Below, piece after piece: positions 22,083 through 29,682 of a stretch of DNA of 52,804 nucleotides. The DNA comes from Gemmataceae bacterium. GTDB taxonomy: Bacteria > Planctomycetota > Planctomycetia > Gemmatales > Gemmataceae. The notes below the pieces were generated by a model, which worked only from the letters and a program-made list of their open reading frames with translations, did no database searches and was not told the DNA's origin. The position numbers were made by a program, and so were the translations under genes. Location of the stretch: contig SHZZ01000024.1 in assembly GCA_009692005.1 (NCBI GenBank), forward strand, positions 1 through 52,804, in the 5' to 3' direction. Each line of letters starts with the position of its first letter. The stretch's first letter is position 1.

Positions 22083-24416
22083 TTACTTTTTTCCAATCAC
22101 CTCTTCCAGTTGGAATTGGTGAGGCGTTTTTTCCACATTCCCGGCCTGGTCGGTGGCCCCGGCCGAGATCTGCCCGTCCCCCGACAGGGGAATTTCCGCT
22201 TCCCACTCGGCCAAACCGGACAGCACTTTCGTTAACTTAGCCTTCTCCCCGTTGACCAGGACCGCGGTAATTTCCCCGTTGTCATGGGCCACCCCGCCGA
22301 CGATCAGCTTGCCATTCACCTTCCTCACGGAGGTGATTATTGTCACTGGGGGAAAGTCATCGACCGGGTTGAGGGCCTTGGGAAATTCGACCCCGGTCAC
22401 TTCCTTGACGCGGGATTCATCCCCGGTGAGGAGCGCCTCCTTGCGGAAATCTCTGGGGTCGGCTTTTTTGTAATCAGGGGAAGCGGTGCTTACCACCAGG
22501 GCATGGCGGCCCGGGCCAAACCAGTCGTGCAAGTAGACCGGCACGCCGGTGGCATGCTTGGGTTCTGGCCGCGGTCCGTCGCCGCCTCGGTTCACCATCG
22601 CCCGCTCCTTGTGCCCCTTCCACCCTGGCGCCTGAACATTGCGGAAATGCGACTCCGCTTTCCCCGCTGGGTTCTGGTCGCTGATCTGGATCAAGGGCAT
22701 GCGCACCCCAGAGTTTTGCTTTTCAAAAGTCAATCCCTCGACGGTGAGCATCCCGTGCTGCACGCTGTCGTCATCGTGGCCGCGGTTAAATGGCTCGGAA
22801 CCCACCTGGGCAATCGAGACATTTCGGTAAACATGGTTGTCATAGTTGGGATGGTAGATGCCATAAGCGGTGTCGTGAATCTGCAGGTTCTCCACCAGCA
22901 GAGAGGGAACCTGCGGGCGGAAGCCGTAATGAACATCCCAGATTTTCAAATTGCGGATGATGAACGGGTGGCGGGTGTCGGGCCCGGCGCGGTTGACCCC
23001 CTCCCCCAGGTTGACCCCATAAAGCCCGATGGAACTGTGGGCTTCGTTGTTGTCAAAGCGGATGAAAGGAAGGGTGCGGATGTCGGTCGGGGCGCGTTGT
23101 CCGTCCGGCTGGCGGATCTGCAAGGTGAGTGATTTGGCCGAGGTCTGCGTGGCTTCAAAGCGGAAGCCATAGGCGTCGTTGGCGGCGGCGGTATTGCGGG
23201 TGAAACTGTTCAAACTATTGGCCCACCAAAAGCCGGCGCCTTCGTTGCCATCGAAGGGCAAGGGCTGCTTGGGCATCCGCTTGCCGCGAACAGCCCCGAC
23301 GGCCAGGTTGCGGTCGAGGAGGTTGTACACTTCGGTGCCGTCCTCAAGAAAGTAACCGTGGCCAAGGCTGGAATAGCCGACATTGTCGCGCACCACCAGG
23401 TAGTTGGTGCCATGGATGGTCAGCCAGCGGTTGTGGCTGGAGTGAATGGAATTGCCGCTGACTTCGCTGCCGCGCATGGTGTCGCCGACCAGGTGAAAGT
23501 GCAGGCTGTAGCGGCCGAGGATGCCTTTTTTCCCCAGGTGGCGAAACTCGGCAAAGCGGATCGATCCGGTCGAGCCGCGGTGGTACATGGTGTGGCCGCG
23601 GATTCCCTCCGGATTTGCCGACTCCACGATGACATTGCGGCTGAGGTTGGCCACTTCGCCCCGGTATTCCCCGCTGCCCAGGTGGTCATGCGACAGTGGC
23701 TTATCCAGAATAATTGTCGCCCCCTTGATGCTCTGGATTTTTCTTTCCTCGGTGAAGGGCCCTTTGTTCCTTGCTCCATAACTGCGGCGGGTGGCGGTAA
23801 TGACCAGGAGGTCGCCGGCTTTCCAGCCGATCCCCGGCTCGGCCAGGGTAAGAGAAGTGTCCTCTGCTTTGGCGGTTTCTCCCAGTTTGACCCAAGTGCG
23901 TGCCATGGCCGCGCCGTGGAATTCCATCTTCCCGCCGCAGCAGACAATGGCCGGGCAGGAGTCAGGATTCATGCCCTCTTGCGCGTGCAGGCGGATGAGA
24001 GCGGTGAATTGGGCCGCGATGGGGTTTTCCGCCGTACCCACTTCCAACGCCGGCCGCGTCTGTCCCGGCTTGGTGGTCTCCAGGTGCGCGTCGCAGTCGA
24101 AACCCTCTTCGCTGTATTCATTCCCCGCTTGAATCTTGATCAGCCCGACATTCAAACGGGTGTTCTTGTCCGGGGCAAAGGTTAAAGCGCCGGCAATGTT
24201 GATGGCGCGAATGACTTGCTCCGATTGCACATCGTAAACGACACGGTGGCCTTGCTGGATCAGCACCTTGGCCCCGTTGGTGGGAACTTTTCCCCCTTCC
24301 CAGGTGGCGGTCGCGGACCACGGCCCGCTTTTCGCCGTGCGGGTGACAACACTTTCAGGGCCTTGGGCCGCCAGTGCCAGGAGACAAAGTATCGCAGTCG
24401 AAACTGGGGAAAGCAT
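22083..24416 (-). CDS. Secreted G8-domain, right-handed beta-helix protein
   Basis: The 777-residue protein has a signal peptide (residues 1-18) and a G8 domain: SATATWEGGKVPTNGAKVLI and GHRVVYDV, with conserved Gly and Trp residues. Long beta-helix coils follow, with motifs such as GSIRFAEFRHLGKKG, SLHFHLVGD and NSIHSSHNRWLTIHGT, as in CEMIP/TMEM2-type proteins that act on hyaluronan. A C-terminal Ig-like module (from about residue 690) has VGGVAHDNGEI and GATDQAGNVEKTP. By family it probably binds or degrades a polysaccharide; no catalytic set can be fixed by eye. A GGAGA ribosome site precedes the ATG. Confidence 0.82.
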   Translation of the reverse strand: MLSPVSTAILCLLALAAQGPESVVTRTAKSGPWSATATWEGGKVPTNGAKVLIQQGHRVVYDVQSEQVIRAINIAGALTFAPDKNTRLNVGLIKIQAGNEYSEEGFDCDAHLETTKPGQTRPALEVGTAENPIAAQFTALIRLHAQEGMNPDSCPAIVCCGGKMEFHGAAMARTWVKLGETAKAEDTSLTLAEPGIGWKAGDLLVITATRRSYGARNKGPFTEERKIQSIKGATIILDKPLSHDHLGSGEYRGEVANLSRNVIVESANPEGIRGHTMYHRGSTGSIRFAEFRHLGKKGILGRYSLHFHLVGDTMRGSEVSGNSIHSSHNRWLTIHGTNYLVVRDNVGYSSLGHGYFLEDGTEVYNLLDRNLAVGAVRGKRMPKQPLPFDGNEGAGFWWANSLNSFTRNTAAANDAYGFRFEATQTSAKSLTLQIRQPDGQRAPTDIRTLPFIRFDNNEAHSSIGLYGVNLGEGVNRAGPDTRHPFIIRNLKIWDVHYGFRPQVPSLLVENLQIHDTAYGIYHPNYDNHVYRNVSIAQVGSEPFNRGHDDDSVQHGMLTVEGLTFEKQNSGVRMPLIQISDQNPAGKAESHFRNVQAPGWKGHKERAMVNRGGDGPRPEPKHATGVPVYLHDWFGPGRHALVVSTASPDYKKADPRDFRKEALLTGDESRVKEVTGVEFPKALNPVDDFPPVTIITSVRKVNGKLIVGGVAHDNGEITAVLVNGEKAKLTKVLSGLAEWEAEIPLSGDGQISAGATDQAGNVEKTPHQFQLEEVIGKK

Positions 24417-26668: not shown

Positions 26669-28531
26669 ATGCGCGGCATTATTCATTCGATGTGGCTGCT
26701 TGGCATCGTGGCGCTCTTCACTCCCATGGGGTTTTCCCAGCAGCCGGGGATTCCTCCTGCAAAACAGGGCGAAGGGAAAGGCGAGTTCAAAGGCCCGGGC
26801 GGGCCTCCGGGCTTCGGCAAGCAAGAGAGAAAAGTCCTCAAACAATTTGACAGCAACAAGGACGGCTGGCTGAACCAGCAGGAAAGGCAAAAGGCGCGGG
26901 AGGAGATCAAGTTTAAAGGTGGGGAATTGCGCAAGGGGCCGGGAGGCTTCCGCATGAATCAAACTCCGCCCAAGCCAGGGCCTTCGCTCAAACCCAGCGA
27001 AGCTCCCGTGGTGAAAAAAGGCGGCCTGTATGATGCGCAATCCTTGCGCGTCATCTTCCTCGATTTCGAAAACGCCGATTGGGAAAAAGAACTCGAAGAC
27101 TTCCATGGCACCGATGTCGATGTGCCCTGCACCATGACCGTCGATGGGAAAAAATACCCCGGCGTGGGTGCTCACTTCCGCGGCATGTCCTCTTATAGCA
27201 TGGTCAGCCCAGGGTTCAAACGCTCTCTCAACCTGGCGCTCGACACCGTCAATTCCAAGGCCAAGTTATATGGCTACAAGACCATGAACTTGCTCAACTG
27301 CAATGGCGACCCTTCCCTCATGAGCTCCGTGCTTTATTCTCAAATCGCCCGGCAGTTCCTGCCCGCGCCCAAGGCCAACTTTGTCCACCTGGTGATCAAT
27401 GGCGAATCGTGGGGGATTTACGCCAATACCCAGCAGTTCAACCGCGACTTCCTCGTGGAAAATTACCATTCCTCCAAGGGCACGCGCTGGAAGGTTCGCG
27501 GCAGCCCCAATGGCCAGGGCGGACTCGAGTACCTCGGCGACGATGCCGAAGCCTACAAGCGCCGCTATGAAATCAAATCGCCCGAGAACGCCAAGGCCTG
27601 GAAGGCGCTCATCCACTTCTGCAAAACGCTCAACCAGACCCCGCCGGAAAAACTCGAAGAAGCCCTCAAGCCTCTGGTGGATATGGACGAACTGCTGGCT
27701 TTCCTGGCGCTGGACATCGCCTTGATTAACAGCGATGGCTACTGGACCCGCGCCAGCGATTTCAGCATTTACCTGGATGAGAAAGGGAAGTTCCATTTCC
27801 TGCCGCACGACATGAACGAGGCCTTTCACCCGAGTGGCGCCGGCGGCATGGGCGGTTTCCGCATGGGCGGTTTTTCCCCCCCGGGCGAGGTCCTGCCCGC
27901 CTTTTTGCAAACCATGCTCGGTTTTACTGAAGCCCAGGGCAAGGCCATGAGGGAATTGCAAAAAGAAGTCGATGCCAGCCTGGAAAAGATTTTGACCAAG
28001 GAACAGTCGAAGCAATTGAAAGAGATGCGGGATCGCGGCCCGGGTGGGCCAGGGTTCCCAGGTGGGCCCGGGGGACTTGGTGGGGCAGGGTTCCCAGGTG
28101 GCCCAGGCGTACCAGGTGCAGGTGGCCCCATGGGGCCTGATGGAGGGCAAGGAAATCCTTCAAGCCGCGGTACCGATCTTGACCCGCTCCTTGGCCTCAC
28201 CGACCAGCGCAAACCGTTGCGCTCCAAGATTCTTGCTGTACCTTCTTTGCGCGCCCGCTACCTGCAAAAGATTAAGGCCATCGCCGAGAAGGCGTTGTCC
28301 TGGGAAAACCTTGGGCCGCTGGTGAAACAGTTCCGCGATCTTATTGAACCGGTGGTCGCCACGGAAACCCGCGGCCTTGCTTCCCTGGACGCATTTCGCA
28401 ACGCCACCGGGGACCAAGCCAACCCCTCCACCCCAGGCGGGCGGAGCATGCCCCTAAAGACCTTCATTGAACAAAGGCAAAAATACCTGCTGCAATATAA
28501 GGAAGGATCCACCCCGTCCGCTGGGCGTTAA
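26669..28531 (+). CDS. Secreted CotH-like protein with EF-hand and collagen-like insertion
   Basis: The 620-residue protein has a signal peptide, an EF-hand-like loop DSNKDGWLNQQE (from Asp61) and a CotH-type domain: RVIFLDFENADWEKELEDFH, YPGVGAHFRGMSSYS, KRSLNLALD, YANTQQFNRDFL and FHFLPHDMNEAF. In the last, PHDMN replaces the PWDLD of the paralogue at 11374, and the HNF motif reads SDF. A Gly-rich collagen-like stretch (residues 457-493) lies between the two halves. The changed catalytic residues raise the possibility of an inactive or altered kinase. The stop overlaps that of the convergent BNR gene within TTAA. Confidence 0.82.
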   Translation: MRGIIHSMWLLGIVALFTPMGFSQQPGIPPAKQGEGKGEFKGPGGPPGFGKQERKVLKQFDSNKDGWLNQQERQKAREEIKFKGGELRKGPGGFRMNQTPPKPGPSLKPSEAPVVKKGGLYDAQSLRVIFLDFENADWEKELEDFHGTDVDVPCTMTVDGKKYPGVGAHFRGMSSYSMVSPGFKRSLNLALDTVNSKAKLYGYKTMNLLNCNGDPSLMSSVLYSQIARQFLPAPKANFVHLVINGESWGIYANTQQFNRDFLVENYHSSKGTRWKVRGSPNGQGGLEYLGDDAEAYKRRYEIKSPENAKAWKALIHFCKTLNQTPPEKLEEALKPLVDMDELLAFLALDIALINSDGYWTRASDFSIYLDEKGKFHFLPHDMNEAFHPSGAGGMGGFRMGGFSPPGEVLPAFLQTMLGFTEAQGKAMRELQKEVDASLEKILTKEQSKQLKEMRDRGPGGPGFPGGPGGLGGAGFPGGPGVPGAGGPMGPDGGQGNPSSRGTDLDPLLGLTDQRKPLRSKILAVPSLRARYLQKIKAIAEKALSWENLGPLVKQFRDLIEPVVATETRGLASLDAFRNATGDQANPSTPGGRSMPLKTFIEQRQKYLLQYKEGSTPSAGR

Positions 28532-29682
28532 TGAAAGATCAGAAAGCCTTCCGGGGTTGCAACGGCGGCGGGCAAGCCCCAAATTCCGATGCCGCGATCC
28601 ACGCGCCCGTGAAGCGGCTTGGCTTTGCCCTCGGCGTCGAAGACTTGCCAAACCAGGGCGCCGCCCCGTTCCCAACCGGTTCCCTCGGTCCAGGTCAGAA
28701 GGGTGTCGCCATTGCTGTGCGCCGCCAGCGCCGGGTGTTTTCTCGCTCCGCCGTGGCCCGGGGCGACAACCGGTTTCCTAATGGAACCGCTTTCCACTTC
28801 AATTGAAGAAAAGTAAATCTGCCCGGCGGTATCCCAGGCAGCCATGATTCCTTTTGGGCCCTGAACCAGGGCCAGCGTGCTCATGGGTCAGAGCGGCAAT
28901 CGCCATTTATGCACCTCTTTCCCCTGAAATGATTGCCCCTTGTCCTTCGAGGATAATAGGTAAATGTCGCGGTCCATGCCTTCGATGGCGGAGCGGTAGA
29001 GAATTTGAACCGCCCCTTCCTTTGAAGCAAAAGCTTTCAAGGAACAGCAAGGGCAAACTCCGGTTTCCTGGCTCCAGGCGGGGGTTTCCCGCGAAAAGGT
29101 TTTTCCCTCATCGGTGGAGTGGGCAACCCAAATTTTGCGATTGGCTTCACCCTTGCCCGTGGTTTTCCCCAAAGCATGCCATACCACATGAACCTGGCCG
29201 AGTGTATCGGCGGCGACCGAGCAGCCTCCATCCATCACCCAGGTCGAGCCGATCAGGTTTTTCTCTTTCTCGAACCCCTTGCCATCGTCAGTCATGCGCG
29301 AGTAAAAGACCGCTTCCGTCGGCTTGCCCGAGCCGTTCCACACCGCGTGAATACGGCCATTCTTTCCCAGCGCCATCTGCACCCCGCGGACCGAACCGGC
29401 AGCGATCGCTTTGCCAGACGGGCTATTTACCTGCATTGGCCTGGCAAAGGATTCCGCCCCCTTGGCCTTGGAGGTGTAGTACAAATCCCCCGAGCGCGGG
29501 TCGCCTTTGTAGTAAATGAGGTGAATGGTCCCCTTGGCATCGCTGAGGGCCTGGGGTTGAATGCCTCCATCCGGCGCTCGGAGGGTGCGCACGGTGATAG
29601 GAGCTTCATCGGCCCCAGCCAAGTGGGGCAAAAGCATGGCCAAGCTGGTTAGCAACAAGAAGGGGAGTTTTGATTTTGTCAT
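28528..29682 (-). CDS. Exported sialidase-like (BNR) protein with in-frame TGA: selenoprotein candidate
   Basis: One frame runs from ATG 29682 (AAGGA 8 nt upstream; signal peptide residues 1-24) to the TAA at 28528, interrupted only by TGA at 28888-28890 (codon 265 of 384). Sialidase-like beta-propeller blades are present on both sides: HLIYYKGDPRSGDLYYTSK, WVAHSTDEGKTFSR, ILYRSAIEGMDRDIYLLSSK, then GIMAAWDTAGQIYFSSIE and LLTWTEGTGW. The pair CPCC (210-213) and (TGA)-PMST recalls the CPCC...CPMS pattern of related proteins, with TGA at the second Cys. This favours selenocysteine insertion over a broken gene. The downstream ATG (28884) has no ribosome site, so a separate product is unlikely. 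Confidence 0.8.
28857..28873 (-). promoter_or_regulatory. SECIS-like hairpin after the in-frame TGA (candidate)
   Basis: On the minus strand GGCCCT and AGGGCC form a perfect 6-bp stem around the loop GGTTC. The loop begins 20 nt after the TGA at 28890-28888 and opens with GG. This spacing and the leading G bases match the bacterial SECIS pattern (E. coli fdhF has loop GGTCT about 18 nt after its UGA). The element lies within coding sequence, as bacterial SECIS elements do. Confidence 0.55.

Follow-up and report, generated by a model that had tools for sequence, protein, structure and literature searches.

In the formate dehydrogenases of E. coli, an in-frame UGA codon is read as selenocysteine (Sec) through SelA, SelB, SelD, tRNA-Sec and a SECIS element, a hairpin with a small loop and a G at the loop start that lies shortly 3′ of the UGA. 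The bacterial SECIS model specifies a loop of 3–9 nt, a stem of 4–16 bp, a G in the first two loop positions, a distance of 16–37 nt from the UGA and a folding energy of −7.5 kcal/mol or lower (PMC13188914). Sec almost always belongs to an active site (PMC13188914), and its use in planctomycetes is known (PMC4807772). We analysed a window of 52,804 nucleotides, the whole stretch of DNA under study, from a Gemmataceae bacterium (contig SHZZ01000024.1), which contains a gene for a putative exported β-propeller protein (the propeller protein, below). Here, likewise, an in-frame UGA is shortly followed by a small-loop hairpin with a G at the loop start, and the full decoding machinery is present in the genome. 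Judged from sequence, the UGA at codon 265 of this gene is very probably read as Sec. The features of the locus are as follows.

28528–29682, minus strand: predicted gene for an exported β-propeller selenoprotein of 384 residues (ATG at 29680–29682, stop codon TAA at 28528–28530)
28888–28890, minus strand: in-frame TGA, the predicted selenocysteine codon (Sec265), in a column that is Cys in 50 of 50 aligned homologues
29044–29055, minus strand: Cys-Pro-Cys-Cys, codons 210–213, the presumed partner cysteines (C210, C212 and C213 are invariant in 51 sequences)
28857–28873, minus strand: predicted bacterial SECIS hairpin GGCCCUGGUUCAGGGCC, with the loop GGUUC (28863–28867) starting 20 nt after the TGA

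Only this one TGA interrupts the 384-codon frame. Residue 265 lies in the context WRLPL-U-PMSTLAL (spanning sequence LPL-U-PMSTLALVQGPK), and a preliminary description of the locus had given the position of the TGA, the intact frame on both sides of it and the PMST that comes next exactly. Mean identity to homologues hardly changes across the TGA (46% upstream, 45% downstream), and third codon positions have the same GC content, 0.68, on either side, so that both halves look equally like constrained coding sequence. By eye, AAAGGA is found close upstream of the ATG, and the N-terminus of the protein, MTKSKLPFLLLTSLAMLLPHLAGADEA, resembles a signal peptide. The gene occurs once in its own genome and, being convergent with a CotH-family gene that it overlaps by 4 bases, belongs to no evident operon. 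An Rfam search of the gene region matched no family. The CotH-family protein itself includes a Gly-Pro-rich collagen-like stretch (GGPGFPGGPGG...; window 28020–28180, plus strand), and elsewhere in the window (22083–24416, minus strand) a large exported-looking protein combines a G8 domain with a CEMIP-type β-helix.

Searches of genome contigs and whole genomes retrieved full-length relatives, most with 35–51% identity, from Planctomycetota, Verrucomicrobiota, Acidobacteriota, Abditibacteriota and Bacteroidota. The preliminary description had taken the TGA to stand at a Cys position paired with an upstream CPCC, and had proposed that the column in homologues, the decoding genes of the genome and the fold of the RNA be checked. 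Indeed, the column is Cys in every one of the 50 aligned homologues, which come from these five phyla; where the codon was read, in 38 distinct homologues, it is TGC or TGT. CPCC forms residues 210–213. The 51-sequence alignment has only 21 invariant columns, and they include C210, C212, C213 and residue 265 as well as R99, R230, R238, D151 and E333. More distant relatives that have the motif CPCC...CPHD keep the four cysteines, and two distant relatives (L119 and L120) have lost Cys265, Cys210 and Cys212 together; in these two cases the joint loss suggests that the invariant cysteines work together. In the neighbourhoods of the homologues, no gene is conserved beyond close relatives. The propeller protein sits in the tree among Cys-containing planctomycete relatives, a placement that makes a Cys-to-Sec change in this lineage the simplest history, and its branch is somewhat long (0.73, with a median of 0.4).

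The second of the proposed checks found selA, selB, selD and tRNA-Sec all present in the source genome, which is estimated to be 100% complete and 1.4% contaminated. selA and selB are adjacent on one contig (C84), and both score above their NCBIfam equivalog cut-offs. The Pfam model SelB-wing_2 had no match in this genome; since the full selB model did match, this blank reflects a failure of sensitivity and not absence. tRNA-Sec, with the anticodon TCA, lies at C72:32489 and scores 65.3 bits (gathering score 47). The same search returned many weaker matches, which are probably other long-arm tRNAs, and ARAGORN confirmed only the 65.3-bit match as tRNA-Sec. The selD gene, on contig C47, has its own in-frame TGA where the catalytic residue is encoded (DYASCAG-U-AGKLPP), so the genome already needs UGA to be read as Sec in order to make SelD. 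No formate dehydrogenase scored over the curated cut-off in this genome. It does contain a formate-dehydrogenase-like molybdoenzyme in two overlapping pieces (C16:2350–4439, L135 and L136; profile positions 1–344 and 337–671), perhaps the result of a frameshift.

The RNA 3′ of the UGA, CCCAUGAGCACGCUGGCCCUGGUUCAGGGCC, contains the hairpin GGCCCU[GGUUC]AGGGCC, with 6 bp and the pentaloop GGUUC 20 nt after the TGA, precisely as the preliminary description had it. As folded, it has a 7-bp stem, GGCCCUG/CAGGGCC, that closes GUU, with the loop at 21 nt and an energy of −12.1 kcal/mol. In loop size, loop G, spacing and energy the hairpin agrees with the bacterial SECIS model. Under the same rules, a hairpin of equal stability occurs at about 0.9% of random window positions and with 1.6% of the window TGA triplets. 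The hairpin of the Sec-type selD gene in the same genome, UCGCA[GGUUC]UGCGA, has an identical loop, and GGUUC is also the loop in three of four other planctomycete Sec-selD genes (GCGCA[GGUUC]UGCGC in one, GCUCA[GGUUC]UGAGC in two), the fourth having the variant hairpin CCGCACAGGUUGUGCGG. Among these hairpins the stem pairs vary on both sides while the loop stays. Two selD genes, each with an in-frame TGA and a GGUU-loop hairpin, are found in one further genome (G266; L122 and L131).

One Cys homologue (L072, genome G203) has, at the place matching the SECIS, a 7-bp hairpin of equal stability with the loop CGUUG; its genome yielded no SelD above the family cut-off. This hairpin after a Cys265 codon could be a chance palindrome or a relic. 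It indicates that coding sequence alone can yield part of the fold, the local A-L-V-x-G-P favouring a palindrome, and hence that hairpin stability alone is weak evidence. We therefore place weight on the loop shared with selD and on the decoding machinery.

A TGA at the Cys265 column was found in no other genome among 95 of the family, 102 of the order, 397 of the class and 392 of the phylum (overlapping sets), so that the case for selenocysteine depends on a single gene from a single assembly, its main weakness. The single occurrence would also fit a mistake in the reads or the assembly, or a recent nonsense mutation: the codon would be, or would once have been, TGC or TGT, in a gene that is a normal Cys-encoding member of the family or has only lately become a pseudogene. 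Assemblies of this type do contain sporadic in-frame TGAs, for example in the homologue L020, where one replaces the codon of the otherwise invariant Trp260, five codons before the Cys. That TGA is followed by no qualifying SECIS-like hairpin (the best reaches −0.4 kcal/mol), is probably an error or a mutation as judged from its sequence context, and serves as a negative control. The genome of L020 and L096 (G061) has a Sec-type selD. Against an error or mutation in the propeller gene stands the arithmetic of stop-making changes, of which 140 single-base ones exist in this gene: just one produces this TGA, and five fall on any Cys codon. Furthermore, a strict SECIS motif (a stem of at least 5 bp closing GGUU[C/G], at 16–37 nt) is rare in background loci, where only 8 of 14,532 TGAs have one downstream, and neither the L020 TGA nor the Cys265 codon of any Cys homologue is followed by it. 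The genome also has the full Sec machinery. We consider an error or mutation improbable, and a chance nonsense change as the source of the TGA very unlikely.

In the standard code TGA is a stop, and an ATG (28884) occurs two codons further on, which would allow for a truncated 264-residue protein or for a split gene that restarts at this ATG. However, such a break would divide the propeller between two blades, the full-length homologues have no stop at that point, and conservation after the TGA equals that before it. The bases ahead of the ATG, GCCGCTCTGACCC, are also devoid of a Shine-Dalgarno-like run, in agreement with the remark in the preliminary description that no ribosome site precedes it. 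A true stop is thus given very little credence here. Even less is given to a reading of the UGA as some other residue (e.g., Trp, genetic code 4) or to near-cognate read-through; such decoding is generally known to exist in other bacteria, but this genome has a tRNA-Sec with the anticodon TCA, and none of the aligned homologues has Trp in the column, which is Cys throughout. The Cys column, the machinery and the SECIS fit together support Sec at codon 265, and with it the designation of the gene as a probable selenoprotein.

We propose that SelB and tRNA-Sec of the cell would decode the UGA at codon 265, directed by the downstream GGUUC-loop SECIS hairpin, and that the codon may have originated when one planctomycete lineage exchanged Cys for Sec in a protein family that is widespread and otherwise contains Cys. 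In an AlphaFold2 model built with 51 sequences (mean pLDDT 91.2), the propeller is most like seven-bladed ones. CPCC (residues 210–213) lies directly ahead of strand 215–219 and residue 265 shortly ahead of strand 271–275, and we take these strands, from the model, as the first strands of neighbouring blades. In other blades, by the alignment and the model, the conserved polar residues Q42/Q44, R99, D151 and H316 lie ahead of the first strand. From the strand order of the model, Sec265 and the invariant Cys210-x-Cys212-Cys213, which occupy the loops that lead into the first strands of two neighbouring blades, would together make up a single active centre close to one mouth of the central channel. 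There, Sec265 could make the attack in a thiol/selenol redox cycle that includes the CxCC cysteines, or it could coordinate a bound metal.

Most likely, the protein is not a sialidase but an exported enzyme of the redox or metal-thiolate type. A redox role taken by itself is slightly favoured, and thiol/selenol redox chemistry appears somewhat likelier than a role as metal ligand. A single hint towards thiol redox chemistry comes from an acidobacterial homologue (L005), the only one next to a thioredoxin-like gene: it is situated 20 bases upstream of that gene, which encodes WCAPC. Membership in the GH33 or BNR-type sialidases was considered and rejected at the level of family profiles, the scores for Pfam BNR_2 (20.7 bits, cut-off 31.4) and BNR_4 (16.1 bits, cut-off 27.3) both lying below the curated cut-offs; no NCBIfam model matched the propeller protein. 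Sialidase catalysis uses an Arg triad, an Asp and a Tyr/Glu pair, and the invariant residues of the family include R99, R230, R238, D151 and E333. Sialidase activity is unlikely, and the word 'sialidase' describes a resemblance of fold only.

Among the 119 prokaryotic selenoprotein families and subfamilies inventoried in 2026, there is no BNR, sialidase or propeller entry (PMC13188914, Table 1), in line with the suggestion in the preliminary description that the family would be new. The GOS paper (PMC2398784) and the deep-Sep paper (PMC12013277) mention no propeller-type selenoprotein, and a literature search on selenoproteins together with sialidase or BNR brought up nothing relevant. Thus the mechanism of insertion is known, and the client family is apparently new. 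It is rather probable that the propeller protein represents a new selenoprotein family, to our knowledge the first with a BNR/sialidase-type β-propeller, and that Sec and CxCC constitute an undescribed redox or metal-selenolate centre at the propeller mouth. As Sec is nearly always found in active sites, Sec265 points to the residue at work in a large family of exported proteins that is uncharacterised and spans at least five phyla, and it argues that the sialidase annotation of this family of environmental bacteria misleads. A client other than SelD could also justify Sec decoding in a planctomycete with no evident Sec-type formate dehydrogenase. Automatic annotation would label such a gene as truncated or split.

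Compared with the formate dehydrogenases of E. coli, the client here is an exported β-propeller protein and the loop is GGUUC. The apical SECIS loop GGUUC and the decoding machinery are common to the propeller gene and the Sec-type selD of its own genome, although the proteins are unrelated and the distance from the UGA to GGUUC is 32 nt in selD and 20 nt in the propeller gene. In structural alignments with VIA-align, it is CylK and the PLL lectins that match best, and not the sialidases, which come close behind in Foldseek. The seven-bladed C-terminal propeller of CylK aligns over 316 residues (Z 27.6, rmsd 3.4) and the seven-bladed PLL-type lectins of Photorhabdus over 294 (Z 26.0, rmsd 3.1), at 11–14% identity, a common fold being no proof of function. 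With the BNR_2/BNR_4 proteins and the GH33 sialidases, the propeller protein shares an Asp-box-like STDEGKTF and the propeller fold (sialidase 8t1z matches the model with a Foldseek E-value of 4.6e-11), whereas it is only 16–17% identical to the proteins of the BNR/sialidase fold and is set apart from them by its invariant CxCC and Cys/Sec set.
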